Below, piece after piece: positions 3,272 to 46,030 of a DNA stretch of 46,030 nt. Origin of the DNA: Thomasclavelia cocleata (GTDB lineage: Bacteria; Bacillota_I; Bacilli_A; Erysipelotrichales; Coprobacillaceae). Positions within the stretch are counted from its first letter, which is position 1, and each line of letters opens with the position of its first letter. The position numbers and the translations under genes are program-made. The notes beneath the pieces are model-generated. The model saw only the letters and a list, made by a program, of their open reading frames with translations, did no database searches and was not told the origin of the DNA. The stretch covers positions 1 through 46,030 of the forward strand of contig NZ_FOIN01000021.1 in assembly GCF_900102365.1 (NCBI RefSeq), written 5' to 3'.

Positions 3272-3433
3272 AAAATCAAAGTCTTGGAAATAACCAGGAC
3301 TTTTACTGTATATAGATACTGTATCTTTATATTTTGTATAAAACTATTTGTAAATGCAAAGATTATCTATCATTATGATATAAAATGGTTTATAATTAAA
3401 AAGAAAATAAAAATTTACGGACAGGAGATTATT

Positions 3434-5224
3434 ATGGCACGGTATATAGTAAATAATTACTCAGTAGAAAACATAGTTTCTTGGATAAAAAGTGGTGAAT
3501 TTGCTATTCCAGAGATGCAAAGACCATTTGTGTGGGATTCTACAAAAGTAAGAGATTTGATAGATTCATTATATAAAGGCTATCCAGTTGGATATATTAT
3601 TATATGGAAAAATCCAGATATTAAATTAAAAGACGGAACTTTAAGTAGTGGAAAGAAAATTGTAATTGATGGACAACAACGTATTACTGCACTAACTGCT
3701 GCTATTGCTGGACATGATGTTGTTAATCAAGAATACAAGAAGGTAAGAATTAAGATTTCGTTTAATCCAATAAATGAAATATTTGAAGTTTATAATCCAG
3801 CTATTGGAAAAGATAGTAAAATGATTGACGATATTTCAGTTATTTTTGAACCAGGATTTGATAGTTTTAATTTTTCAATTGAGTATTCAAAAGAAAATAA
3901 TGTAGATCCATCTAAAATAAGTAAATCAATAACCAATCTTCAAGCAATAAAGGCGAATAACATAGGTGTAATTGAATTAGAGCATAGCCTAGATATTGAA
4001 ACTGTGACCGATATTTTTATAAGAATTAATTCAAAGGGAACAGTGCTATCGCAAGCGGATTTTGCCATGTCTAAAATCTCTTCTAATGAAAAATACGGAG
4101 GAGATATTATTCGTAAAACTATAGATTATTTTTGTCATTTAAAGCAAAGACCAATGGATATAGAAACCATCATGGAAAATGATAGAGATTTCTGCAAACT
4201 AGATGAATTTGACAAACTAAAATGGATTGCAAGAAATCATGATGATATATATAGTCCTGATTATACTGATGTATTAAGAGTAGCATTTACTTCTCAATTT
4301 TTAAGAGGAAAGTTAGCTGACTTAGTTAGTAAATTGTCAGGAAGAAATTTTGAAACTAGAGGTTATGAAGAACAAATATCAGAAGAATCTTATGAAAAAC
4401 TAAGAAATGGTGTAATGAAATTTGTTAATAAAACAAATTTTGACCGTTTTATAATGATAGTAAAATCTGCGGGCATCATTGATGAATCATTGGTTAGATC
4501 GGACAATGCTTTGAATTTTGGGTATGCTTTATACATTTTACTAAGAGATAAAGGGTTTAATGCAGATTATATAGAAACTGTAGTTAGAAAATGGATTGTA
4601 TTATCGCTTTTAACTGGAAGGTATTCAGGTTCACCAGAATCAATGTTTGATTTTGATATTAAGCGTTTTGATAGCAATGAGCCGATGGAATATTTACATA
4701 GTGTTGAATTAGGAGAATTGTCTGATGCTTATTGGGAACATATTTTACCTTCAAGATTAAACACTTCCGTTGCCAGTAGCCCCTATTTTAAATTGTATTT
4801 AATGGCTCAAGTAAAGGAAGGAAATCATGGTTTTTTATCAAATCACATAACTGTTCAAGCGTTGATTGAGAATAGAGGGGATATACACCATCTATTTCCT
4901 AAAAAATATCTTCAAAAAAATGGATTGGATGCAAGAGGAGAATATAATCAAATCGCAAATTATGCTTATACTCAGTCGGAAATCAACATAAAAATAAAAG
5001 ACGTAGCTCCACATGTTTATATGAAATGTATTTTAGATCAAATCAAAAATAAAGTGCCTACAATTGGTGGAATAGTTGATATGGTTAATTTAAAAGATAA
5101 TTTTAAACAAAATTGTATTCCAGATGATTTTTGTAATTATTCAATAGAGAATTATCGAAAATTCTTAGAAGAACGTAGAGTTTTAATGGCTCGTAAAATA
5201 AAAGATTTCTATAATGGATTGTAA
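3434..5224 (+). CDS. GmrSD-like DUF262/HNH defence protein
   Basis: This 596-aa protein starts at the ATG at 3434, seven bases behind AGGAGA; the longer frame upstream lacks a site. The N-terminal DUF262 (ParB/Srx-like NTPase) domain shows MQRPFVWD and the signature IDGQQRITAL. The C-terminal part holds IHHLFPKKYL, an HNH-type (DUF1524-like) nuclease motif. GmrSD and its relatives (type IV restriction, SspE, BrxU) use the DUF262 domain to hydrolyse nucleotides and the HNH domain to cut foreign, often modified, DNA. The stop is 14 bp from the Xre gene and the following hsdM, so it probably leads the type I restriction operon. Function is inferred from the family; the target modification is unknown. 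Confidence 0.85.
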   Translation: MARYIVNNYSVENIVSWIKSGEFAIPEMQRPFVWDSTKVRDLIDSLYKGYPVGYIIIWKNPDIKLKDGTLSSGKKIVIDGQQRITALTAAIAGHDVVNQEYKKVRIKISFNPINEIFEVYNPAIGKDSKMIDDISVIFEPGFDSFNFSIEYSKENNVDPSKISKSITNLQAIKANNIGVIELEHSLDIETVTDIFIRINSKGTVLSQADFAMSKISSNEKYGGDIIRKTIDYFCHLKQRPMDIETIMENDRDFCKLDEFDKLKWIARNHDDIYSPDYTDVLRVAFTSQFLRGKLADLVSKLSGRNFETRGYEEQISEESYEKLRNGVMKFVNKTNFDRFIMIVKSAGIIDESLVRSDNALNFGYALYILLRDKGFNADYIETVVRKWIVLSLLTGRYSGSPESMFDFDIKRFDSNEPMEYLHSVELGELSDAYWEHILPSRLNTSVASSPYFKLYLMAQVKEGNHGFLSNHITVQALIENRGDIHHLFPKKYLQKNGLDARGEYNQIANYAYTQSEINIKIKDVAPHVYMKCILDQIKNKVPTIGGIVDMVNLKDNFKQNCIPDDFCNYSIENYRKFLEERRVLMARKIKDFYNGL

Positions 5225-5238
5225 AAAAGGAGAGTGTT

Positions 5239-5445
5239 ATGAACGTTTGTTACAACAGATTGTTTAAGCTATTAATCGATAAAGGATTAAAGAAAACGGA
5301 ATTTGCTAAAGAAGTAGGCATTGGTCAAAATACCTTAGCTAAACTTTCAAAGAACGAATATGTATCTATGGAAGTTCTTGTAAAGATATGCAAAGGATTG
5401 AAATGCAATATTGAAGATGTAGTAGAAATTGTATGGGAGGATTAG
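5239..5445 (+). CDS. Small Xre/Cro-family HTH regulator
   Basis: This 68-aa protein is a single helix-turn-helix domain (FAKEVGIGQNTLAKLSKNEY) with the typical Cro/C1 C-terminal block (MEVLVKICKGLKCNIEDVVE). It has a strong site (AAGGAGAG) and ends 2 nt before hsdM. A paralogue with a nonsense codon (19422-19628) precedes the second hsdM remnant, so this is a conserved partner of these type I loci. It probably controls timing of methylase expression, as controller proteins do in other restriction systems. That role is inferred. Confidence 0.85.
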   Translation: MNVCYNRLFKLLIDKGLKKTEFAKEVGIGQNTLAKLSKNEYVSMEVLVKICKGLKCNIEDVVEIVWED

Positions 5446-5447
5446 AT

Positions 5448-6962
5448 ATGGCGAAGGAAACAAATGCAAATATTGGATTTGAAAAAGAACTGTGGGATGC
5501 GGCATGTGTGTTATGGGGGCATATCCCAGCAGCTGATTATAGAAAAGTAATTATAGGATTGATATTTTTACGCTATGTATCCAGTGCTTTTGATAAGCGT
5601 TATAAAGAATTAGTTGAAGAAAGTTATGGATTTGAAGAAGACAAAGATGCATATACAGAAGAAAATATTTTCTTCATTCCAGAAGTCGCCAGATGGGATT
5701 ATATAGCAGTCCATTCCCATGAACCAGAGATTGGTAAATATATTGATGAAGCAATGGAAGCTATTGAAAAGGAAAATACAACTTTAAAAGGTGTATTGCC
5801 TAAAAATTATGGAACACCTGATTTAGATAAAACAGTTTTGGGAGATGTGGTAGACTTATTTACTAACAAAATTCATATGGATGGTACCGATCAAGATATG
5901 GATTTACTTGGTAGAACATATGAATATTGTATAGCTGAATTTGCGGCTAAAGAAGGTAAGGATGGAGGAGAATTCTATACGCCTTCTAGCATTGTAAAAT
6001 TATTAGTAGAAATATTAAAACCATATGATAACTGTCGTGTGTATGACCCATGTTGTGGCTCAGGTGGGATGTTTGTTCAATCGGCAAAATTCATTCAAGC
6101 TCATAGTGGAAATAGGGATAGTATTTCTGTCTATGGACAAGAAGCAAATCCAGACACATGGAAAATGGCAAAAATTAATATGGCAATTAGAGGAATTGAT
6201 GCTGATTTTGGACAATATAATGCAGATACATTTACCAATGATTTACATAAAACATTAAAAGCAGATTTTATAATGGCTAATCCTCCATTTAACTGGAAAG
6301 GATTAAAAATTGATCAACTAAAAGATGATGTGAGATGGAAATATGGTACTCCTCCAGGTGGAAATGCAAACTTCGCTTGGATTCAACATATGATTTATCA
6401 TTTAGCACCAAAAGGGAAAATCGGTTTAGTACTAGCTAATGGTGCTTTATCATCACAAACAAGTGGTGAAGGTGAAATTAGAAAGAACATTATAGAAGAT
6501 GATTTAATCGAAGGTATTGTCGCTTTACCAACACAATTGTTCTACAGCGTTACTATTCCAGTAACATTATGGTTTATTTCTAAAGATAAAAAACAAAAAG
6601 GAAAAACAATATTCATTGATGCTCGCAAAATGGGGTACATGGTAGATAGAACACATCGTGATTTCACAGAAGAAGATATCAATAAAATAGCAAAAACATT
6701 TGAAGATTTCCAAAATGGAATTGATGTTGATGAAAAAGGTTATTGTGCTGTGTGTTCTATAGAAGATATTAAAAATCAAGATTATATTTTAACTCCAGGA
6801 AGATATGTCGGTATTGAAGAGCAAGAAGAAGATGATGAACCATTTGATGAAAAGATGGCTAGATTAACTTCTGAATTATCTGATATGTTTGCCAAATCCC
6901 ATGAACTTGAAGAGGAAATTCGTAATAAATTGGGGGCGATTGGGTATGAACTTAAGCGATGA
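5448..6962 (+). CDS. hsdM: Type I restriction-modification methyltransferase subunit HsdM
   Basis: This 504-aa N6-adenine methyltransferase starts at the ATG at 5448 behind GGGAGG; an in-frame ATG at 5433 lies upstream of that site. It has the HsdM N-terminal helical domain (NANIGFEKELWDAACVLWGH), the SAM-binding motif VYDPCCGSGGMF (residues 198-209) and the catalytic NPPF (278-281). With HsdS it forms the methylase, and with HsdR the restriction complex. Its 3' end overlaps the PIN gene by 17 bp. The full set of motifs and normal length indicate it is active. Confidence 0.96.
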   Translation: MAKETNANIGFEKELWDAACVLWGHIPAADYRKVIIGLIFLRYVSSAFDKRYKELVEESYGFEEDKDAYTEENIFFIPEVARWDYIAVHSHEPEIGKYIDEAMEAIEKENTTLKGVLPKNYGTPDLDKTVLGDVVDLFTNKIHMDGTDQDMDLLGRTYEYCIAEFAAKEGKDGGEFYTPSSIVKLLVEILKPYDNCRVYDPCCGSGGMFVQSAKFIQAHSGNRDSISVYGQEANPDTWKMAKINMAIRGIDADFGQYNADTFTNDLHKTLKADFIMANPPFNWKGLKIDQLKDDVRWKYGTPPGGNANFAWIQHMIYHLAPKGKIGLVLANGALSSQTSGEGEIRKNIIEDDLIEGIVALPTQLFYSVTIPVTLWFISKDKKQKGKTIFIDARKMGYMVDRTHRDFTEEDINKIAKTFEDFQNGIDVDEKGYCAVCSIEDIKNQDYILTPGRYVGIEEQEEDDEPFDEKMARLTSELSDMFAKSHELEEEIRNKLGAIGYELKR

Positions 6963-7995
6963 AACAACGTACTGGTTGATTTTTGATACAAATGCTCTTT
7001 TCCAAGCATATGAAAAGAAAGCGGATTTCACAATCTTTAACTTTAATGCAACATTTGAAAATGTAATTGATATGATTAACCAACTTGATATATATAATCA
7101 GGTAACCGTAGCGATCCCAAGTGTTGTTTGGAATGAAATGGAAAAACAGATTATAGCAAAGCATGATGAATTACTTTTAACCTATAAAAATACAATATCA
7201 AAGAAACGGTTCCCTGAGTATTCCATACAGGAGAATTCTACAATAAATTATCCAGAGTACATAAAAATTAGAATTGAAGAATATAAGAAAGAAATTTCAG
7301 AAAAATTGAATAAAGTTATAGAGATTCCAATTGCTTCTAATAATAGATTTAAAAGCATAGTAAATCGTGCATTCGATAAATTACCTCCTTTTGAAGGAAA
7401 AGATAAAAAGTCCGATAAAGGATTTAAAGATGCATTGTTATGGGAAAGTATTTTAGAATTTGCATTAAAGCATCGAAACTCAAAAATTATATACTATTCT
7501 AAAGATAATGCTTTTGGAGAATTTCTTTTAAAGGAGTTTACAGAAAACATATCAGATTCTTCACTATTTATATGCAAAAATGAAAGTGAAGTTAAGATAC
7601 AATTAGAAGAGTGGGCGCTAGAAATCGATAAATATTCCTATCAACCAATTGAAGATTTTGATGAAAATAAGGAAATTATCGATTGGCTAAATTCTGGAGA
7701 TTTTCTTGTACAAATAATAGAACGAGATTATGGTTTTGTTGAACAAGGGCGTTTAATTACTTCAACAACTGCTCATTTGGTAAGCATTGATAATATTGAA
7801 TGTTTAAATAAAAATGAAGATTCAAAAGAGTATTATATAGAAACCACTTTAAGAATTGAATACAATTTAAAAGATGGCGGAAACATATCAGAAATCATTA
7901 ATGCAGGTATTCAAGTTGAAAAATTGGAGGATGTTGTTTTTTCTGTTGAAGATGTATATAGAATAAATGAGGACGAAGATGAAAGTGAGACTTAA
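6946..7995 (+). CDS. PIN-domain (DUF4935-like) predicted ribonuclease inside the hsd operon
   Basis: The 349-aa protein starts at the ATG at 6946, overlapping hsdM, with a G-rich site (GGGGGCG) upstream. The N-terminal 195 residues show PIN-type acidic positions: D14 in LIFDTNAL, E64 in WNEME, D162 in KGFKDALLW and D187 in YSKDNAF. All four are kept, so metal-dependent RNase activity is plausible. The last 150 residues are acidic, look like beta-sheet and are not recognised. It ends 2 nt before hsdS. Its place between hsdM and hsdS suggests a toxin-like back-up to restriction, or an accessory nuclease. Neither is demonstrated. Confidence 0.8.
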   Translation: MNLSDETTYWLIFDTNALFQAYEKKADFTIFNFNATFENVIDMINQLDIYNQVTVAIPSVVWNEMEKQIIAKHDELLLTYKNTISKKRFPEYSIQENSTINYPEYIKIRIEEYKKEISEKLNKVIEIPIASNNRFKSIVNRAFDKLPPFEGKDKKSDKGFKDALLWESILEFALKHRNSKIIYYSKDNAFGEFLLKEFTENISDSSLFICKNESEVKIQLEEWALEIDKYSYQPIEDFDENKEIIDWLNSGDFLVQIIERDYGFVEQGRLITSTTAHLVSIDNIECLNKNEDSKEYYIETTLRIEYNLKDGGNISEIINAGIQVEKLEDVVFSVEDVYRINEDEDESET

Positions 7996-7997
7996 AT

Positions 7998-8537
7998 ATG
8001 AATATAAATCGAACAAAAATGTCTTTAATTGATTATATTGAAATGAATCCGAGAGAAACAATTGCTAAAGGTTGTATAGCTAAGAAAATAGGAATGGACA
8101 AACTCCAACCATTTTGTCGAGATATTCTGGAATATGAATTAGCCGAATTTAATGGAGGCTCTAAGTTTCGTAATGGTGATACTATTATGGCTCGAATTAC
8201 CCCTTGCCTTGAGAACGGGAAAACCGCTATGGTGACTATTTTGGATGAAAATGAGGTGGGTTTCGGTTCAACTGAATACATTGTGTTTAGAGCAAAAAAA
8301 GGGTGGACAATTCCTAATTTTGTTTACTACCTTGTTTGCAGTTCGGTTGTACGAGAACCTGCAATAAAGTCAATGGTTGGATCATCTGGACGACAAAGAG
8401 TACAAACGGATATAGTAGCAAATCTTGAAATTAATTTTCCTTCACTTGACAAGCAAACTCGAATTTCCAGTATACTAAAATCACTGGATGATAAAATTGC
8501 TTTAAATAATAAAATAAACAATAATTTAGTGGCTTAG
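7998..8537 (+). CDS. hsdS: HsdS N-terminal half (first target-recognition domain), split by DNA inversion
   Basis: This 179-aa product contains one target-recognition domain and the central conserved helix (KSLDDKIALNNKINNNL), and then stops as VA*. Full HsdS is about 390-400 aa with two such domains. The break falls exactly at inversion site A (8515-8528). The missing C-terminal half lies immediately downstream in reverse orientation (8534-9205). Recombination between sites A and B would join codon TTA 8526-8528 in frame to CTG and give a protein of about 394 aa. In the present state it is a half-subunit; half-HsdS proteins can sometimes dimerise, so some activity is possible. Confidence 0.9.
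   Translation: MNINRTKMSLIDYIEMNPRETIAKGCIAKKIGMDKLQPFCRDILEYELAEFNGGSKFRNGDTIMARITPCLENGKTAMVTILDENEVGFGSTEYIVFRAKKGWTIPNFVYYLVCSSVVREPAIKSMVGSSGRQRVQTDIVANLEINFPSLDKQTRISSILKSLDDKIALNNKINNNLVA
8515..8528 (+). repeat. hsdS inversion site A
   Basis: The core is TAAACAATAATTTA on plus. It encodes the NNNL at the junction of the two HsdS halves. Together with site D the match extends to 22 bp (8515-8536 against 11481-11502). Sites A and C point one way, B and D the other. Confidence 0.9.
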
Positions 8538-9205
8538 AGTTCAATGTTTGACACATCCAACTCGCCAGACATAAGCTTAGGTAAAAGCGTATCTCTAAGT
8601 GCTACCAGATTGTCGCTTTCAATTTGATTATGCTTAATCTTTGCAAACATTGGTGCAGCGAAGTCGTGAAACTCTTTCAATTCATTGTCGGTTGGAACGA
8701 CAAATGGCATACCTTTGATTATTTTTGAATTTACGGCAGTTGCGATTGAAGATGTACTGCCCATAGTTTGGTAGTTAAAACATTTCAAATAACAATATAG
8801 GTATTCATTTATTTCTTTCTTGTTAGTTTTAAAATGTGCAATCGCTTCATTGGTTGTCATATCACCATTTGTAATTGCGATTCTGCCAACAGTGAGTTTG
8901 AAGCTAAGTAAAACTGTGTTATCAGGTACTACTTTAACATTATGACGGTCAAGTGCTTCTTTTGTAAGTTGCTCAGAACTGCTACTGATATAAAGACCGC
9001 AATTACCCATATCTGAAATAGATACCCAAGTGACATCTTGAGGATTAGTGCTAAACCATTGCGGCTCCTTCCTTGGTGGCGTTTTACCAATAGAAATATC
9101 AAAATATTCGTCAGCACGGCAAATTCTTCGCTCATCATTGATGGTATCGACAAATTTATTAAGATATAAAGTTAGCACTTGTTCCAGTAAATTATTGTTT
9201 AGCAT
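8534..9205 (-). CDS. hsdS: Inverted silent HsdS C-terminal half (second target-recognition domain)
   Basis: The minus-strand frame begins MLNNNLLEQVLTLYLNKF, a central conserved helix. It contains one target-recognition domain and ends LPKLMSGELDVSNIEL, nearly the same C-terminus as the intact HsdS at 10302-11483. There is no convincing ribosome binding site before the ATG at 9205. It therefore appears to be a stored cassette expressed only when inversion between sites A and B places it behind the 5' half at 7998. Its stop codon abuts the stop of that half. Confidence 0.88.
   Translation of the reverse strand: MLNNNLLEQVLTLYLNKFVDTINDERRICRADEYFDISIGKTPPRKEPQWFSTNPQDVTWVSISDMGNCGLYISSSSEQLTKEALDRHNVKVVPDNTVLLSFKLTVGRIAITNGDMTTNEAIAHFKTNKKEINEYLYCYLKCFNYQTMGSTSSIATAVNSKIIKGMPFVVPTDNELKEFHDFAAPMFAKIKHNQIESDNLVALRDTLLPKLMSGELDVSNIEL
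9188..9201 (-). repeat. hsdS inversion site B
   Basis: TAAACAATAATTTA on minus, at the 5' end of the inverted HsdS half. It is in the same codon phase as site A (AAC AAT AAT TTA), so A-B recombination keeps the frame. Confidence 0.9.
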
Positions 9206-9303
9206 ATAACATATCCTATAACTTTCGTGGGTGGCGGGAGTTAATATCAGGGGACTTCCGCTCCATAGTTGTTCTCTAAGAATATTTCAAAGGAGAATTG
9301 ACT
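9206..9303 (+). promoter_or_regulatory. Leader of the hsdS recombinase gene, conserved in the second locus
   Basis: The 98-bp stretch before the recombinase holds gtggcgggagttaatatca and then cttccgct...gttgttctc. Recognisable related sequence (gtggcagaggttaatatca...ccgttgc...gttggttctc) precedes the recombinase remnant at 20904. GCGGGAG and CTTCCGC could pair around the TTAATATCA. It may be a promoter or leader, or an accessory recombinase-binding site. Its function is not known. Confidence 0.4.
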
Positions 9304-10287
9304 ATGAAACAAGATTTAATCAAAGATATTGTTCAGGGAATGTTACCTTACTTGAACAATGCACAAAACGAAAAGCTACAAGAGGTACTTAAATACACTC
9401 TTGCAGATTATGAGGTAACACAATCAGAGAATAAAGAGAAATTCTCGGAGCAGAACTTTGTGGAGCTGTTCCTGTCAGCAAAACGAATTGAGGGTTGTTC
9501 CGAGAAATCTCTTAAATACTACAAAGCAACCATTGATGCAATGCTTGTCGATCTTAACAAGAACGTAAAGCATATTGTTACAGATGACGTTAGAGGATAT
9601 CTAACTGATTATCAGGAAAGAAAAAAATCAAGTAAGGTTACGATTGATAATATCCGTCGCATACTTTCAAGCTTTTTCTCTTGGTTAGAGGATGAGGATT
9701 ACATATTAAAAAGCCCTGTAAGAAGAATACATAAGGTAAAAACAGGTACAAACATTAAGGAAACGTATTCTGATGAAGTATTAGAGCTTATGAGGGATAA
9801 ATGCATTGAGTTGAGAGATTTGGCGATTATAGATTTGCTTGCTTCAACAGGTATGCGTGTTGGAGAAATGGTACTGCTTAATCGAAATGATATTGACTTT
9901 AACGAACGAGAATGTATTGTTTTCGGTAAAGGCAGTAAGGAACGAGTGGTATATTTTGATGCTCGTACCAAAATACATTTACAGAATTATTTAGAAAGCA
10001 GAACGGACAACAACCAAGCACTATTTGTGTCATTAAAATCACCACATGAAAGATTACAAATTGGTGGTGTTGAAGTTCGTTTGAGAGAATTTGGAAAACA
10101 ATTAGGTTTGCAAAAGGTACACCCTCACAAATTCAGGCGTACCCTTGCAACTATGGCAATAGATAAAGGAATGCCTATTGAGCAATTGCAACAGCTCTTG
10201 GGGCATAGAAAAATAGATACAACCTTGCAATACGCAATGGTTAAACAGAGCAATGTTAAAATTGCTCATCGAAAATATATTGGATAG
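9304..10287 (+). CDS. Tyrosine recombinase of the hsdS shuffling locus
   Basis: This 327-aa XerC/D-like recombinase starts at the ATG at 9304, seven bases after AAAGGAGA. It has a SAM-like core-binding domain (about 48-135) and a catalytic domain with R185 (STGMRVGE), K209/K212 (GKGSKE), H275-x-x-R278 (HPHKFRRT), H301 (LLGHRKID) and nucleophile Y310 (TLQYA). All catalytic residues are present. It lies between the two hsdS modules and among four copies of the inversion core. This is the arrangement of recombinases known to invert hsdS genes in streptococci and other Firmicutes. It almost certainly drives the phase variation here. A decayed paralogue is at 20904-21120. Confidence 0.93.
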   Translation: MKQDLIKDIVQGMLPYLNNAQNEKLQEVLKYTLADYEVTQSENKEKFSEQNFVELFLSAKRIEGCSEKSLKYYKATIDAMLVDLNKNVKHIVTDDVRGYLTDYQERKKSSKVTIDNIRRILSSFFSWLEDEDYILKSPVRRIHKVKTGTNIKETYSDEVLELMRDKCIELRDLAIIDLLASTGMRVGEMVLLNRNDIDFNERECIVFGKGSKERVVYFDARTKIHLQNYLESRTDNNQALFVSLKSPHERLQIGGVEVRLREFGKQLGLQKVHPHKFRRTLATMAIDKGMPIEQLQQLLGHRKIDTTLQYAMVKQSNVKIAHRKYIG

Positions 10288-10301
10288 AGAGGAATTTGAT
10301 T

Positions 10302-11483
10302 ATGGCTGAATGGCAGAAAACCTTACTGATAGATATAGTGAATCTTATTGGTGGTGGTACACCCAAAACATCTAAAGCGGAGTATTGGGGCGGAAATATT
10401 AACTGGTTGTCAGTTAAAGATTTTAACAATGAGAACCGCTATGTTTATTTCACAGAAAAAACTATTACAGAAGAAGGACTTAATAACAGCTCAACGAAAT
10501 TACTCAAAAGAGATGACATCATTATTTCAGCCAGAGGAACTGTTGGAGAACTGGCTATGATACCGTTTCCGATGGCTTTTAATCAGTCCTGTTATGGTAT
10601 AAGAGCTAAAGAAGGCATTGATAATACCTTCTTGTATTACTTGATAAAAAACAGCGTGAGAAAGCTTAAAGCAATGACTCATGGTTCAGTATTCGATACG
10701 ATTACAAGGGATACTTTCGCAAATATTGAGGTTGCTATACCGGATACTCAAATGCAACATCGTATAGCGAAAATGCTAGTTGCTATAGATGATAAAATTG
10801 AGAACAATCAGAGAATAAACAATAATTTAGAGCATCAAATGGAAACGCTTTTTCGCTCACTCTTTGTGGAAAATGTAAATTCTGCATGGCAAGAGGGCGT
10901 ACTTTCTGATCTTGGAACCATCGTTGCTGGTGGAACTCCATCTAAAGCAAAACCCAAATACTATGCTGAACATGGAATTGCTTGGATTACTCCTAAAGAC
11001 TTATCCCTGAATAAGTCAAAATTTATATCCCATGGAGAAAATGATATTTCGGAATTGGGTTTCTCCAAAAGTAGTACGACCAAAATGCCAGCTGGAACTG
11101 TTTTATTTAGTTCAAGAGCACCTATTGGCTATATTGCTATTGCTGCTAATGAATTAACAACTAATCAAGGTTTCAAATCGGTAGTACCAAATGAAAATAT
11201 CGGGACAGCTTTTATGTATTTTCTTCTAAAGTGGTTATTGCCAACTATTGAAAGAATGGCATCAGGTTCAACATTCAAAGAAATTTCTGGTACAGGAATG
11301 AAATCCGTTCCAGTTGTTATTCCTGATGACAAAACCATTGCACAATTCAATGATTTTTGTAGTCCTATTTTTCAGCAACAAGAAATTCTTGAAGCAGAAA
11401 ATATTAGGCTTTCCAATATTCGTGATGCTTTACTTCCAAAATTGATGTCTGGCGAACTTGATGTCTCCGACATTGACCTTTAA
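10302..11483 (+). CDS. hsdS: Intact HsdS specificity subunit
   Basis: This 393-aa protein starts at the ATG at 10302 behind GAGAGGAA. Two target-recognition domains (about 1-150 and 195-370) are separated by conserved helices (AIDDKIENNQRINNNLEHQM and the C-terminal LPKLMSGELDVSDIDL). HsdS dictates the bipartite DNA target of the HsdM2S methylase and of the restriction complex. Inversion site C lies in the central helix and site D just after the stop. Flipping 10816-11502 would truncate this gene and silence its second domain, mirroring the state of the gene at 7998. This is the copy that appears active in the orientation sequenced. Confidence 0.95.
   Translation: MAEWQKTLLIDIVNLIGGGTPKTSKAEYWGGNINWLSVKDFNNENRYVYFTEKTITEEGLNNSSTKLLKRDDIIISARGTVGELAMIPFPMAFNQSCYGIRAKEGIDNTFLYYLIKNSVRKLKAMTHGSVFDTITRDTFANIEVAIPDTQMQHRIAKMLVAIDDKIENNQRINNNLEHQMETLFRSLFVENVNSAWQEGVLSDLGTIVAGGTPSKAKPKYYAEHGIAWITPKDLSLNKSKFISHGENDISELGFSKSSTTKMPAGTVLFSSRAPIGYIAIAANELTTNQGFKSVVPNENIGTAFMYFLLKWLLPTIERMASGSTFKEISGTGMKSVPVVIPDDKTIAQFNDFCSPIFQQQEILEAENIRLSNIRDALLPKLMSGELDVSDIDL
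10816..10829 (+). repeat. hsdS inversion site C
   Basis: TAAACAATAATTTA on plus, encoding the NNNL between the two target-recognition domains of the intact HsdS. It is direct with A and inverted with B and D. Confidence 0.9.
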
Positions 11484-11488
11484 GCCAC

Positions 11489-11502
11489 TAAATTATTGTT
11501 TA
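11489..11502 (-). repeat. hsdS inversion site D
   Basis: TAAACAATAATTTA on minus, six bases after the hsdS stop. The match to site A extends to 22 bp (11481-11502). CCACTAAA/TTTAGTGG around the core also forms a short hairpin. Confidence 0.9.
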
Positions 11503-11583
11503 GTGGTTAATGATAGTTATAAAATTAAATGTAGATAAAAAAGTTAATAATATATGTAAAAATATTAGAAATGAGGTGAAAGT

Positions 11584-14500
11584 ATGCCAACACATTTTAC
11601 AGAATCAAGTTATGAAGAATCAATTATAGAATTGTTTGAGGGAATGGATTATAGATATGTCTATGGACCAGATCTTGAGCGAGATTATATGAATCCTTTA
11701 TATGTAGATGATTTTGAAGATTCAGTTTATAGAATTAACAAAGGAAAAGATAGAGAAGCCATTAAAGATGCCATTTATCGGATAACCCATATTGAAAACG
11801 GATCGTTAGAAAAGAAAAATCAAGTTTTTACTAACTACTTACAAAATGGAGTCGATGTTTCATATTTCAAAGATGGAAAAGAAAAGTCGGATATCGTCTA
11901 TTTAATTGATTATGAAAATGTATCGAATAACTCTTTCGTAGTTGCGAATCAATGGACTTTTATTGAGCATAGTAACAAAAGACCTGATGTTATTCTATTT
12001 ATCAATGGTATGCCATTAGCATTGGTTGAATTAAAATCGCCATCACGAGAAGAAACTGATGTATCTGAAGCATATGCTCAATTAAGAAACTATATGCTAG
12101 AAATACCGTCAATGTTTATTTATAACCAAATTTGTGTTATGAGTGATCAATTAACTTCTAAAGCTGGAACAATAACTTCTGGTGAAGATCGATATATGGA
12201 ATGGAAAACAAAAGATGGTAGTTATGAAAATACCCAATTTGCTCAATTCGATACATTCTTTGAAGGAATGTTTGAGAAAGAACGATTATTAGACATTATA
12301 AAAAACTTCATTTGTTTTTCAAATGATGGAGAAAATATTATAAAAATATTGGCAGCATACCATCAGTATTTTGCTGTAAGAAAAGCTATTACTTCTACAA
12401 AAAAAGCTACTGTAACCGATGGGAAAGGTGGAGTTTTTTGGCATACGCAAGGTAGTGGAAAATCATTATCAATGGTATTCTATGCACACTTATTACAAAA
12501 AGCTTTAGAATCACCAACTATCGTTGTTTTAACAGATAGAAATGATTTAGATGACCAATTGTTTTCACAGTTTTCTAAATGTAAAGATTTTTTAAGACAA
12601 ACACCAGTTCAAGCTACTAGTAGAGAACATTTAAAAAATCTGTTAGATAATATCAAGGTAAATGGAATTATCTTCACTACGATGCAGAAGTTTGAAGATT
12701 CATTTGATGTGTTGACCGATAGAAGAAATATTATAGTTATGGCTGATGAGGCTCATCGTGGTCAATACGGATTGGAAGAAAAAGTAAAGATTATAAAAAA
12801 TGAAAAAGGTGAAGATGAAGCGAAAGTTGTAAAAGGCACAGCACGTATAATTCGTAACAGTTTACCTAATGCAACGTTTATTGGTTTTACTGGTACACCG
12901 ATTTCTGCTAAAGATAAAAGTACTATAGAAGTATTTGGTAATTATATTGATGTTTATGATATGACTCAAGCTGTTGAAGACGGAGCAACTCGCCCTGTTT
13001 ATTATGAAAGTAGAGTTATTAAACTTCATTTAGATGATAACATAATCAGATTGATTGATGCAGAGTATGATTTAATGGCTAACTCTGCTGATGAGGAAGT
13101 TGTTCAAAAGAGCAAGAAAGAATTAGGTAAAATGGAAGCAGTTCTTGGAGCTGATCAGACAATTGAATCTTTAGTTAATGATATTTTGCTACATTATGAA
13201 GACAATCGTGCAAATTTATTAACTGGAAAAGCATTGATTGTTGCTTATTCTAGATCTATCGCAATAAAAATCTATAAGAAGATATTAGAGAAACGCCCTG
13301 ATTGGATGGAAAGAGTGACATGTGTCATGACTTCTAGCAATAAAGATCCTGAAGAATGGCATGATATTATTGGGAATAAAGCACATAAGGAAGAGTTGGC
13401 TGTTAAATTCAAAAACAATGATGACCCATTGAAGATAGCGATTGTTGTTGATATGTGGTTAACAGGATTTGATGTACCTTCATTAGCAACTATGTATGTG
13501 TATAAACCTATGAATGGGCACAATTTAATGCAAGCTATAGCTCGTGTAAATCGTGTTTACAAGAATAAAGAAGGTGGACTTGTCGTTGATTATATCGGCA
13601 TCGCTCAAGCTTTAAAAGAAGCTATGAACGATTATACTGTCAGAGATAAGAAAAACTATGGAGATATGGATATATCTAAAGCTGCTTACACTAAATTTGA
13701 AGAGAAACTTCAAATCTGTAAAGATTTATTGCATGGTTATGATTGGTATAAATTTAAGATTGGAACAAATCTAGAAAAAGCAAAAACAATCAGTGGTGCA
13801 GTAAACTTCATGTTAGACCCAAAACGACAAGAAGATAAGGATCATTTTATTAGAGAAAGTACAGCGTTACATCAAGCTGTTCAATTATGCTCATCTATTG
13901 TTGAAGAAGAATTTCGTGTTGAAGCAGCATTCTTTGAAGCAATACGTGTTATGCTAAACCGTTTAATGAATAAAGGTGGAAAAGGTAAAATTTCTCTTCC
14001 AGAAATGAATGAACGGATTAATGAGTTGTTAAAGCAATCTATCAAGAGTGATGGAGTAATCAATTTATTTAGTGATGTAAAACAAGAATTCTCTTTGTTT
14101 GATACTGACTTTTTAAAAGAAATTGGCAAAATAAAAGAGAAAAATTTAGCTGTGGAGGTACTTAAAAAACTAATTGCAGATCAAATTAAGGTATATAGAA
14201 GAACCAATGTAGTTAAATCAGAAAAATTCTCTGAAATAATTCAAACGACAATTAATTCTTATTTAAACGGAATGTTAAGTAATGAAGAAGTTATTAAAGA
14301 ATTGTTAGATTTAGCCAAGCAAATTAAAGTAGCTCGCGAAGAAGGAAATGCACTAGGTTTAACATCCGATGAATTAGCATTTTATGACGCTTTAACAAGA
14401 CCACAAGCAATTAAAGATTTTTATGAAAATGATGAGTTAATCGCTATTACTAGAGAATTAACGAAAGCACTAAGAAGCAATAAAACTGTTGATTGGCAGA

Positions 14501-14640
14501 AAAAAGAATCTGCACGTGCAAAAATGCGTATGCTAATCAAGAAATTACTTAAAAAACATAGGTATCCACCTGAAGGAATGGAAGATGCTGTTCAAATAGT
14601 AATGATGCAATGCGAACTATGGACTGATAATGTTATGTAA
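11584..14640 (+). CDS. hsdR: Type I restriction enzyme motor/nuclease subunit HsdR
   Basis: This 1018-aa protein starts at the ATG at 11584 with a GAGGTGAA site. The N-terminal PD-(D/E)xK nuclease shows D135 (RPDVILF) and E149-x-K151 (LVELKSP) with the QxxxY motif (QLRNY, 166-170). The SF2 motor follows with Walker A TQGSGKS (288-294), DEAH (388-391), TGTPIS and later helicase motifs, then a C-terminal helical domain that docks to HsdM. Length and motifs are normal. It is separated from hsdS by 100 bp and may belong to the same transcript. A terminator follows at 14659. Confidence 0.97.
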   Translation: MPTHFTESSYEESIIELFEGMDYRYVYGPDLERDYMNPLYVDDFEDSVYRINKGKDREAIKDAIYRITHIENGSLEKKNQVFTNYLQNGVDVSYFKDGKEKSDIVYLIDYENVSNNSFVVANQWTFIEHSNKRPDVILFINGMPLALVELKSPSREETDVSEAYAQLRNYMLEIPSMFIYNQICVMSDQLTSKAGTITSGEDRYMEWKTKDGSYENTQFAQFDTFFEGMFEKERLLDIIKNFICFSNDGENIIKILAAYHQYFAVRKAITSTKKATVTDGKGGVFWHTQGSGKSLSMVFYAHLLQKALESPTIVVLTDRNDLDDQLFSQFSKCKDFLRQTPVQATSREHLKNLLDNIKVNGIIFTTMQKFEDSFDVLTDRRNIIVMADEAHRGQYGLEEKVKIIKNEKGEDEAKVVKGTARIIRNSLPNATFIGFTGTPISAKDKSTIEVFGNYIDVYDMTQAVEDGATRPVYYESRVIKLHLDDNIIRLIDAEYDLMANSADEEVVQKSKKELGKMEAVLGADQTIESLVNDILLHYEDNRANLLTGKALIVAYSRSIAIKIYKKILEKRPDWMERVTCVMTSSNKDPEEWHDIIGNKAHKEELAVKFKNNDDPLKIAIVVDMWLTGFDVPSLATMYVYKPMNGHNLMQAIARVNRVYKNKEGGLVVDYIGIAQALKEAMNDYTVRDKKNYGDMDISKAAYTKFEEKLQICKDLLHGYDWYKFKIGTNLEKAKTISGAVNFMLDPKRQEDKDHFIRESTALHQAVQLCSSIVEEEFRVEAAFFEAIRVMLNRLMNKGGKGKISLPEMNERINELLKQSIKSDGVINLFSDVKQEFSLFDTDFLKEIGKIKEKNLAVEVLKKLIADQIKVYRRTNVVKSEKFSEIIQTTINSYLNGMLSNEEVIKELLDLAKQIKVAREEGNALGLTSDELAFYDALTRPQAIKDFYENDELIAITRELTKALRSNKTVDWQKKESARAKMRMLIKKLLKKHRYPPEGMEDAVQIVMMQCELWTDNVM

Positions 14641-42449: not shown

Positions 42450-42560
42450 CAAATATATAATTTTGAATAATTTATTTTCTTTAAATAACTTTTTAATATT
42501 ATTGTAATTTTTATAATTATATTTATAATAATATTATTACAATATAAGCAGGATGATAAA

Positions 42561-45122
42561 ATGAAAAAAATAGTATTAGGAATATTAGCACATGTTGATG
42601 CAGGTAAAACAACATTGACTGAAAGTGTTTTGTATTTAAGTAAAGCAATTCGTACTTTAGGGAGAGTTGATCATGGAGATGCATTCTTGGACTATAATGT
42701 CCAAGAAAGAAATCGGGGAATTACGATATTTTCAAAACAAGCAGTATTTAATTGGAATGATTGTCAAATAACATTGATTGACACTCCTGGTCATGTTGAT
42801 TTTTCAACTGAAATGGAACGAACATTACAAGTATTAGATTATGCAATTTTAGTAATCAGTGGTATAGATGGAGTTCAAGTACATAGTGAAACGATTTGGA
42901 AGTTGTTACAACATTATCAAATACCAACTTTTATTTTTATAAATAAGATGGATAATATCCATGCAAATAAAGAAGAACTATTATCAGAATTAAAAAAACG
43001 TTTAAATGAACAGTGTTATGATTTTGAAAATCTTGATGATGATTTTTATGAAAATATTGCATTAAATAATGAAGTATTATTAGAATATTATTTAAAACAT
43101 AATACACTTCCAAAAGAAATGTTAATTGAAGAAATTATAAAGCGCCAGCTTTTTCCATGTTTCTTTGGTTCAGCACTAAAAATGGAAGGGATTGATACCT
43201 TTTTAAATGAATTCACTAGTTATATTAAAGAAAAGGAATATCCAGAAGATTTTGGAGCTCGGGTATTTAAAATCAGTCATGATAAACAAGGTAATAGATT
43301 GACTCATCTTAAAATTACTGGTGGAACATTAAAAACAAAAGCACAAATTGGTAAAGATGAAAAGGTTGATCAAATTAGAATTTACTCTGGCAATAAATAT
43401 CAATTAGTAAATGAAGTTAAAGCTGGAGATATTTGTGTTATCAAAGGTTTTAAGAATATTATGGCTGGACAGGGATTAGGAATTGAAGAGGAAATAATCC
43501 AACCTGTATTATCACCTTATATGGATTATCGAATTATTTTACCAGAAGATCATGATTGGCATCAAACATTAGAAAAATTATCTTTATTAGCTCAAGAAGA
43601 TCCTCAATTACATATTAATTATAATAATCATACTCAAGAAATTCATGTTCAACTAATGGGAGCTATTCAAATTGAAGTTCTTAAAAACCTTATTAATGAA
43701 AGATTTGGATTAAATGTTAGTTTTGATCATGGTAAGATCATATATAAAGAAACTATTTTAGAAGCAGTAGAAGGAGTGGGGCATTTTGAACCATTGCGTC
43801 ATTATGCTGAAGTTCATTTGCTTTTAGAACCAGGTAAACCAGGGAGTGGTTTGGAATATGGGGTTAATTGCAAGGATGAGGTTTTATCTAGTAGTTATCA
43901 AAGATTGATTTTGACACATTTAAAGGAAAAGGAACATTTAGGTGTATTAACTGGATCTGCAATTACTGATATGAAAATAACTCTTATCTCTGGTAAAGCA
44001 CATTTAAAACATACTGAAGGTGGCGATTTTCGTGAAGCAACATATCGGGCTGTTCGACAAGGTTTAAAGTCAACCAAATCAATTTTATTGGAACCATATT
44101 TTGATTTTACTTTAGAATTACCTGTTGAATTTTTAAGTAAAGCTATTTATGATATTGAAGCAATGAAAGGATCTTTTGTTATGCCTGATATTCATAGAGA
44201 AGTTGTTAGTATTACTGGTAGTGCTCCAGTAAGCAGAATGCAAAATTATCAAAGTGAAGTAATTAATTATACTAAGGGTAAAGGTCGGTTAATATGTCAA
44301 GTTGCTGGATATCATCCTTGTCAAGATGAAGATGAGGTTATTAAACAAATTAATTATGATAGTGAAACTGATAAAGATAACCCGACTGGTTCTGTTTTTT
44401 GTAGTCATGGTGCAGGTTATAATGTTAAATGGGATGAAGTAGAGAAGCATATGCACATTCCTTTACAATTAAAAAAAACTTCTAGAATAGAAGAAAAATA
44501 TCAGCAAACTACTAAATTTGATGATGCAGATAAAGAACTAGAAGAAATATTCACAAAAACTTATGGACCTGTTAAAAACCGTAATTTTATGAAAGAAACA
44601 CCAAGAAAATTACTCAATGAACCAGTTTATAAACATATTCCTGAATGTTATCTAATTGATGGTTATAATGTTATTCATTCATGGCCAGATCTTAAAGAAC
44701 TAGCTAAAGATAATCTAGATGCCGCAAGGTCACGATTGATTGATATTATGTGTAATTATCAAGGATATAAAAAGTGTATTTTAATTTTAGTTTTTGATGC
44801 TTATAAAGTAAAAGATAATTTGGGAAGTAGTTATAAGTATCATAATATTTATATTGTATATACTAAAGAAGCTCAAACTGCTGATATGTATATTGAACGT
44901 ACTACTCATGAATTAGCTAGTAAATATAGTATTACAGTTGCTACATCAGATGCTTTAGAACAATTGATTGTTTTAGGACAGGGGGCCAAGCGAATTTCAT
45001 CTAGGGAATTACGTTTAGAAATTGAATATTTGGATAAAGAAAAATTGGCTGAATTTAAAAGCCGTCAACCTAAAGGATATAATTATTTGTTACAAGATTT
45101 AAAGAAATATCATAAAGAATAG
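42561..45122 (+). CDS. TetM/EF-G-like ribosomal GTPase fused to a YacP/Rae1-type NYN nuclease
   Basis: This 853-aa protein has an N-terminal translational GTPase (AHVDAGKTT 10-18, DTPGHVDF 74-81, NKMD 128-131). EF-G-like domains II-V follow to about residue 640, the length of TetM-type ribosomal protection proteins. A linker leads to a PIN-like NYN domain from residue 697: LIDGYNVIHSW (D700), LVFDAYKVK (D746), TADMYIERTTHELA (D775) and VATSDALEQ (D797), then RISSRELRLEIE. This matches YacP; its B. subtilis member Rae1 cuts mRNA in the ribosomal A site. The fusion would bring an A-site nuclease with a GTPase that enters the A site. Tetracycline resistance is possible but not implied. Confidence 0.9.
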   Translation: MKKIVLGILAHVDAGKTTLTESVLYLSKAIRTLGRVDHGDAFLDYNVQERNRGITIFSKQAVFNWNDCQITLIDTPGHVDFSTEMERTLQVLDYAILVISGIDGVQVHSETIWKLLQHYQIPTFIFINKMDNIHANKEELLSELKKRLNEQCYDFENLDDDFYENIALNNEVLLEYYLKHNTLPKEMLIEEIIKRQLFPCFFGSALKMEGIDTFLNEFTSYIKEKEYPEDFGARVFKISHDKQGNRLTHLKITGGTLKTKAQIGKDEKVDQIRIYSGNKYQLVNEVKAGDICVIKGFKNIMAGQGLGIEEEIIQPVLSPYMDYRIILPEDHDWHQTLEKLSLLAQEDPQLHINYNNHTQEIHVQLMGAIQIEVLKNLINERFGLNVSFDHGKIIYKETILEAVEGVGHFEPLRHYAEVHLLLEPGKPGSGLEYGVNCKDEVLSSSYQRLILTHLKEKEHLGVLTGSAITDMKITLISGKAHLKHTEGGDFREATYRAVRQGLKSTKSILLEPYFDFTLELPVEFLSKAIYDIEAMKGSFVMPDIHREVVSITGSAPVSRMQNYQSEVINYTKGKGRLICQVAGYHPCQDEDEVIKQINYDSETDKDNPTGSVFCSHGAGYNVKWDEVEKHMHIPLQLKKTSRIEEKYQQTTKFDDADKELEEIFTKTYGPVKNRNFMKETPRKLLNEPVYKHIPECYLIDGYNVIHSWPDLKELAKDNLDAARSRLIDIMCNYQGYKKCILILVFDAYKVKDNLGSSYKYHNIYIVYTKEAQTADMYIERTTHELASKYSITVATSDALEQLIVLGQGAKRISSRELRLEIEYLDKEKLAEFKSRQPKGYNYLLQDLKKYHKE

Positions 45123-45132
45123 GGGGTAGATT

Positions 45133-45501
45133 ATGAGTTTTAAATACAATCTCAATTATATTAGTGGAATTAATGAATATTCTAAACGAGCTATTTATAC
45201 TTTAGTTATTGATAGAGATTGTTTTTATGTAAATGGTCTAATTAAAAAGAAGAAATTTTCATATAATCAAGTTATCAAAATAGTTTATGGTACAACAGAT
45301 GAATTAAAAAGAAATATTGAAGAAGTAAATATAAATATTTTTGGTAATATTGGATTATTAGATCGCCGTTTAAATAAAAGACTTCATTATTGTTTAGTCA
45401 TTGTTTTAGAAAATACAACTATAATCTTTGCAGAAGAACATGAAACAAGTATAAAGAATGCTTATCAAAAATTGATGAAAGTTTATGAACAATATCATTA
45501 A
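45133..45501 (+). CDS. Hypothetical protein, 122 aa
   Basis: It starts 11 bp after the GTPase-nuclease fusion with an AGGGGGT site, so the two are probably co-transcribed. It has a strand-rich middle (AIYTLVIDRDCFYVNGLIKK, HYCLVIVLENTTIIFAEEHE) and a C-terminal helix, a pattern that fits a PH-like small domain. No membrane segment is seen. I do not recognise it. Its coupling to the fusion gene makes it a candidate partner. Confidence 0.7.
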   Translation: MSFKYNLNYISGINEYSKRAIYTLVIDRDCFYVNGLIKKKKFSYNQVIKIVYGTTDELKRNIEEVNINIFGNIGLLDRRLNKRLHYCLVIVLENTTIIFAEEHETSIKNAYQKLMKVYEQYH

Positions 45502-45644: not shown

Positions 45645-46030
45645 AGGGGCTGTAACGAGTAAATAACTCATTTCAGTTTCAAAAAAACGAAAAAAAACAC
45701 GGTCATCCGTGTTTTTTGGTATAATGTTAGTTATGAATACAACACTACACACAAAAAATTATAACGCATATCAACCGAATATGCTACTGGATTTTTCATT
45801 ATCTTTCGAAAAAGATATTGCTCATGATGATATTTGTAGAACTGTTATTGAAGTTGCGGAAGGGATCAATGTTGCTAAGTATGTCGATTTCTCTAACAGA
45901 AATTCTTATGGGTATGATGGAGTTATGATGTTTAAACTTCTTGTTCTTGCCAAATCACTTTTTGGTTACTGTTCTACTAGAAGATTAGCTGATTTGTGCA
46001 AAACTGATATCAGATTTATGTTTATTGCTG
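45645..46030 (+). mobile_element. Left end of an IS1182-family insertion sequence
   Basis: GGGGCTGT at 45646-45653 resembles the terminal repeat of IS1182-type elements and marks the likely left end. Inside it is a strong hairpin (AAAAAACACGG at 45692-45702 with CCGTGTTTTTT at 45707-45717), the kind that blocks read-through into the transposase. The transposase gene follows and runs past the window end, so the right end cannot be seen. Confidence 0.75.
45733..46030 (+). CDS. IS1182-family transposase, partial (N-terminus)
   Basis: The frame from the ATG at 45733 encodes 99 residues to the window edge (MNTTLHTKNYNAYQPNMLLD, SYGYDGVMMFKLLVLAKSLF, RLADLCKTDIRFMFIA). This is the conserved N-terminal domain of IS1182/IS1380-like DDE transposases, with the catalytic core outside the window. 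A TATAAT lies at 45720-45725, very close to this ATG, so a slightly later start is possible. Confidence 0.82.
   Translation, partial: MNTTLHTKNYNAYQPNMLLDFSLSFEKDIAHDDICRTVIEVAEGINVAKYVDFSNRNSYGYDGVMMFKLLVLAKSLFGYCSTRRLADLCKTDIRFMFIA

Follow-up and report, generated by a model that had tools for sequence, protein, structure and literature searches.

Does a protein that joins a ribosomal GTPase to a ribosomal nuclease use one activity to direct the other? The question is raised by a gene at 42561..45122 (+ strand) in a 46,030-nucleotide stretch of Thomasclavelia cocleata DNA, hereafter the window, whose 853-residue product combines an EF-G/Tet-type translational GTPase with a YacP/Rae1 NYN nuclease. 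An earlier note on this DNA had suggested that such a chain might couple the GTP-driven removal of stalled ribosomes or drugs to mRNA cleavage. We asked what the two halves are, where the fusion occurs and what became of stand-alone yacP in genomes that carry it, and we weigh here several readings of what the protein might do.

Architecture of the fusion protein

The open reading frame starts with ATG and is preceded by the ribosome-binding site AGGATG (42550..42555, + strand), read directly from the sequence; a promoter scan gave no excess over shuffled sequences. Pfam finds every EF-G-type domain and then NYN_YacP in this one chain, bearing out the architecture that the earlier note had described. 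An artefact of frame or assembly is excluded by the open frames of at least 740 codons present in 36 of the 38 same-family genomes that have the domain; two of these 36 frames contain internal stops, and the YacP matches in the remaining two genomes adjoin contig ends.

The GTPase half has the five-domain, EF-G-like order of the Tet ribosomal protection proteins, all on the + strand: the G domain (residues 4-223, 42570..43229; GTP_EFTU, E 8e-52), domain II (residues 231-304, 43251..43472; EF-G_D2), domain III (residues 328-388, 43542..43724; EFG_III), domain IV (residues 391-505, 43731..44075; EFG_IV) and domain V (residues 509-590, 44085..44330; EFG_C). The G-domain motifs G1 (AHVDAGKTT), G3 (DTPGH) and G4 (NKMD) are intact, as in EF-G/EF2-type GTPases, and invariant or nearly so, with H11-T18, D74-H78, N128, K129 and D131 unchanged across 56 fused homologues, a set that includes H78, the catalytic histidine of DTPGH. 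In a structural comparison by VIA-align, the best partners of residues 1-626 include EF-G, with Z up to 41, and TetM (3j9y), with Z 32. Since the VIA-align rows mainly cover these residues, the fold of the nuclease half rests on sequence homology and Pfam. That half (residues 698-849, 44652..45107, + strand) scores 165.6 bits for NYN_YacP against a Pfam cut-off of 24.6 and aligns along its length with Bacillus subtilis YacP/Rae1 (5MQ8, 5MQ9; E 4e-26). The four acidic residues that the earlier note had listed, D700, D746, D775 and D797, are indeed in place as counterparts of Rae1 D7, D53, D81 and D104, a pairing counted by hand on the alignment, and are invariant in the 56 fused homologues. With these acidic residues, the core GTPase motif residues and H78 all invariant, both catalytic centers look functional.

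Between the two halves lie a C-terminal extension (residues 591-633, 44331..44459, + strand), common to unfused homologues, which end just beyond it, and a linker (residues 634-694, 44460..44642, + strand) that is mostly of low confidence. The AlphaFold2 model of the whole protein has a mean pLDDT of 85, falling below 50 at residues 640-653 and 671-691, with a conserved short helix (residues 656-668, DEELxxIFxxTYG) between these segments. Residues 634-694 are thus predicted to form, probably, a flexible tether of about 60 residues, and because the model is of low confidence or disordered here, it does not predict where the NYN domain sits relative to the GTPase.

Distribution, replacement of yacP and history

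The fusion is found across the window's family and is widespread in Clostridia. Of the 43 genomes in the family, 38 carry a single YacP domain, and the fusion is a near-universal, single-copy gene with no conserved neighbors; it is dispensable, since several family genomes that are nearly complete do not carry it. A wider draw of 392 genomes gave 39 matches above cut-off, nearly all of them long fused frames, while 250 of 393 genomes drawn around Clostridium punense had a match. Among the 150 best-scoring matches listed for these 250 genomes (one per genome), 81 were fused, 65 were stand-alone and 4 were of intermediate length. Five genomes of the C. punense draw had more than one match, and just one genome (G718) of the roughly 250 with the domain carried fused and full stand-alone forms together, the other second matches being weak or fragmentary. 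Genomes therefore normally hold a single NYN_YacP domain, which in fusion-carrying genomes is nearly always the fusion, although this exclusivity tracks lineages, as does the genome draw, so the counts do not represent independent events.

Stand-alone clostridial yacP lies directly behind rlmB in most of the genes examined, as does yacP in B. subtilis, whose product is a separate protein of about 170 residues without a GTPase. In contrast, the window's nuclease domain is attached to a GTPase and encoded at another locus. It is also the sole YacP domain of the window's genome, which is 100% complete, so a separate yacP gene, whose absence the earlier note had proposed to check, is indeed missing. 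The corresponding operon there reads cysS-mrnC-rlmB-sigma-factor-like gene-nusG, with no yacP (mrnC, cysS, nusG and the sigma-like gene were assigned by eye from translations). From these gene arrangements, the fusion appears to have taken over from stand-alone Rae1, with a yacP-less operon being as expected.

In a tree of NYN domains, the fused domains form one clade (91%), and support is 99% for a clade that also includes two stand-alone genes, one (L126) from Clostridium sp. 12(A) and one denoted L141; a wrongly extracted row (L073, branch length 10) is also in the tree but leaves the conclusion unaffected. This topology fits a single old fusion. Both genomes with these stand-alone genes encode a GTPase elsewhere that is 43-45% identical to the window's GTPase, and since it is encoded separately in both, their state would represent either the condition before fusion or a later fission. 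An unfused GTPase is also found in four other genomes with stand-alone yacP, with a nearly identical tip and an end just past the position of window residue 633. In the GTPase tree, the branching order of fused and unfused forms is weakly supported. The two parts are, then, separate genes in some Clostridia, an arrangement that the earlier note had regarded as evidence against its proposal; a functional link is nevertheless not refuted by this, because the fusion takes the place of stand-alone yacP and vice versa.

Several natural variants depart from the usual form. One (L044 in genome G135, reverse strand, 4846-6627) is an in-frame fusion of 594 residues that lacks domains IV and V. Its NYN active site is intact, and it retains the linker helix together with the G domain and domains II and III, indicating that domain IV is not always required. 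In another (L045 in genome G296, 5039-7500), the GTPase and NYN halves occupy overlapping frames (a TGA/GTG overlap with an A-rich stretch before it), an arrangement that may reflect fission, frameshifting or a sequencing error. The tip is degenerate in two further members (L047 and L048). Taken together, these variants suggest that the nuclease is retained even where domain IV is not.

Published relatives and the downstream gene

The earlier note knew of no characterized protein with this architecture. That still holds for characterization, our literature search having found no experimental work on any fusion member, but the architecture itself, a single chain with a YacP-like NYN domain after an EF-G/Tet-type GTPase, was published in 2015, when Tet proteins of ten Clostridiales species were reported to have acquired the domain and were proposed to have an rRNA RNase ability or a role in resistance (Atkinson 2015, PMC4342817). 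The search found no other paper that treats the fusion. The window's protein is a further member of this published architecture, and what is added here is that the fusion is far more widespread than the ten species, whose proteins had been named as Tet with a suggested antibiotic-linked RNase action, that it lacks the Tet tip, that it replaces stand-alone yacP, and that natural variants exist.

The nearest unfused proteins are GTPases of the HTEGGDF type from Clostridia and Ligilactobacillus salivarius (L199-L204 and L227), which are 43-48% identical to the window's GTPase half. The clostridial ones share its tip and C-terminal extension; unlike the window protein, these GTPases end at about residue 633 and have no NYN domain. 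The L. salivarius relative, on plasmid pA17A (786-2720), has the tip HTVGGDF and is annotated as a tetracycline resistance ribosomal protection protein, a label that looks doubtful. A separate curiosity among the records is a Clostridioides difficile "plasmid" (NZ_CP149674.1) that holds chromosomal-looking genes (pyruvate carboxylase, ctsR) along with a gene for an EF-G-like protein and one for a stand-alone YacP, and that is possibly mislabeled.

Ten bases downstream of the fusion gene is a gene for a 122-residue protein (45133..45501, + strand) with its own strong ribosome-binding site, which the earlier note had thought might belong with the fusion. It is real and lies directly downstream by coordinates in 9 of 9 same-genus genomes; among 34 other genomes of the family there was one match, marginal (E 0.008), and none was convincing. 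This rules it out as a conserved subunit outside the genus. The protein is modeled (pLDDT 89) with a PH-like fold, for which the Foldseek E-values, from 0.006, are weak, and candidate identities as HU-CCDC81 (Pfam E 0.036) and RNase R (E 0.0075) were rejected, as both fall far below cut-off. The 122-residue protein is at most a genus-restricted companion of the fusion, a lineage-specific accessory outside the core. Beside its gene is an insertion element (45690-46030), consisting of a perfect hairpin and then a fragment of a DUF772 transposase that continues past the end of the contig. Elsewhere, the window holds Type I restriction-modification genes (3284-14640), with HsdM at 5433-6962 and HsdR at 11584-14640, and a GmrSD-type gene beside them at 3284-5224.

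Proposed action on the ribosome and its alternatives

In EF-G-type factors, domain IV enters the ribosomal A site. Rae1 has been described as a ribosomal A-site endoribonuclease whose access may be increased by stalling (PMC6613710), and the premise of the earlier note that both parent families are A-site factors is thus supported. As domain IV and Rae1 would be competing for one space in the A site, it looks impossible for them to act together, and the simplest model has them acting one after the other. We lean, by a little, toward the view that in the fusion a GTPase delivers Rae1 to ribosomes that are stalled or have a vacant A site, where the nuclease cuts the mRNA, and that the protein stands in for the stand-alone Rae1 of other Firmicutes. 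As we infer ribosome binding, cleavage and the order of events, the GTPase half in its GTP form would bind the factor site of the 70S ribosome, like EF-G and TetM, with a preference for ribosomes that have an empty A site or have halted elongation; GTP hydrolysis would lead to domain IV being pulled back; the NYN nuclease, on its tether, could then enter or approach the vacated A site and cut the mRNA, so that the message would be destroyed and the ribosome could be rescued. A bolder form of the proposal, which we put forward tentatively and think less likely to be right than wrong, is that of a GTP-driven mRNA endonuclease whose GTPase senses halted ribosomes and hands the tethered Rae1 into the A site. 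In this form it would take over from stand-alone Rae1 in the window's family and in many Lachnospiraceae, and would be their main enzyme for co-translational mRNA surveillance.

The two activities might instead be uncoupled, with the GTPase doing a ribosome job of its own (recycling, back-translocation or relief of stalling) and the NYN part mainly keeping it on ribosomes. We consider this unlikely, though it deserves real weight: apart from its one helix, the long linker shows poor conservation, the same GTPase is found unfused in genomes with yacP elsewhere, and both the split form and the form without domains IV and V exist, whereas the fusion seems to have arisen once, long ago, and to have been kept across much of Clostridia and the window's family, and it displaces the canonical rlmB-yacP arrangement. 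Improbable, in our judgment, is a reading in which the NYN domain cuts rRNA or tRNA rather than mRNA, in maturation or in the destruction of damaged ribosomes, with the GTPase as its guide. The products of mrnC and rlmB act on 23S rRNA, and stand-alone yacP adjoins rlmB, which would agree with such a role, one that comes near the rRNA RNase ability proposed in 2015 (Atkinson 2015, PMC4342817); later work on stand-alone Rae1, however, indicates ribosome-associated mRNA cleavage.

That the fusion protects ribosomes from tetracycline or another antibiotic seems very improbable, even though its GTPase half has TetM and TetO (3J9Y, 4V6V) as its closest solved relatives (E ~1e-75, about 30% identity, same domain order), followed by EF-G, and forms with its unfused relatives a clade (98% SH-aLRT) that is sister to TetM/TetO/TetQ. 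NCBI labels members as translation factor GTPase family proteins or as TetM/TetW/TetO/TetS family. The scores of the window protein are far under the cut-offs for resistance proteins, at 436.9 bits against 775 for NCBIfam tet_protect and 308 bits against 1100 for TetM/W, and it differs from TetM/TetO in its extra C-terminal extension, linker and nuclease. At the tip of domain IV, where TetM, TetO and TetQ have YSPVSTPADF, it has HLKHTEGGDF (residues 481-490, 44001..44030, + strand), with H481 aligned to the tip histidine of EF-G and LKH to TetM S508-P509-V510. None of the seven unfused relatives has the YSPVS tip either, and HxKHTEGGDF is near-invariant at this place in the 56 fused rows (H481, K483, H484, T485, G487-R491). 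Tip loop, score and tree position together rule out TetM orthology. Given the low scores and the replacement of YSPVS by an EF-G-like histidine tip, drug displacement through the TetM mechanism is unlikely, and the near-universal, single-copy presence of a gene with no conserved neighbors also argues against a protection protein. The drug-removal part of the earlier proposal accordingly finds no support, and the GTPase half likely has a ribosome task that uses its EF-G-like tip.

The reading that we favor, a Rae1 delivered by its own GTPase, bears on many Lachnospiraceae and their relatives, in which these proteins are sometimes annotated, probably wrongly, as tetracycline resistance determinants. 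The fused, unfused, split and domain-IV-less forms that occur in nature make the question of coupling directly testable. If the coupling is real, a ribosome-driven GTPase cycle would control an mRNA-cutting enzyme within the same chain, which would explain how Rae1-type nucleases reach the A site.
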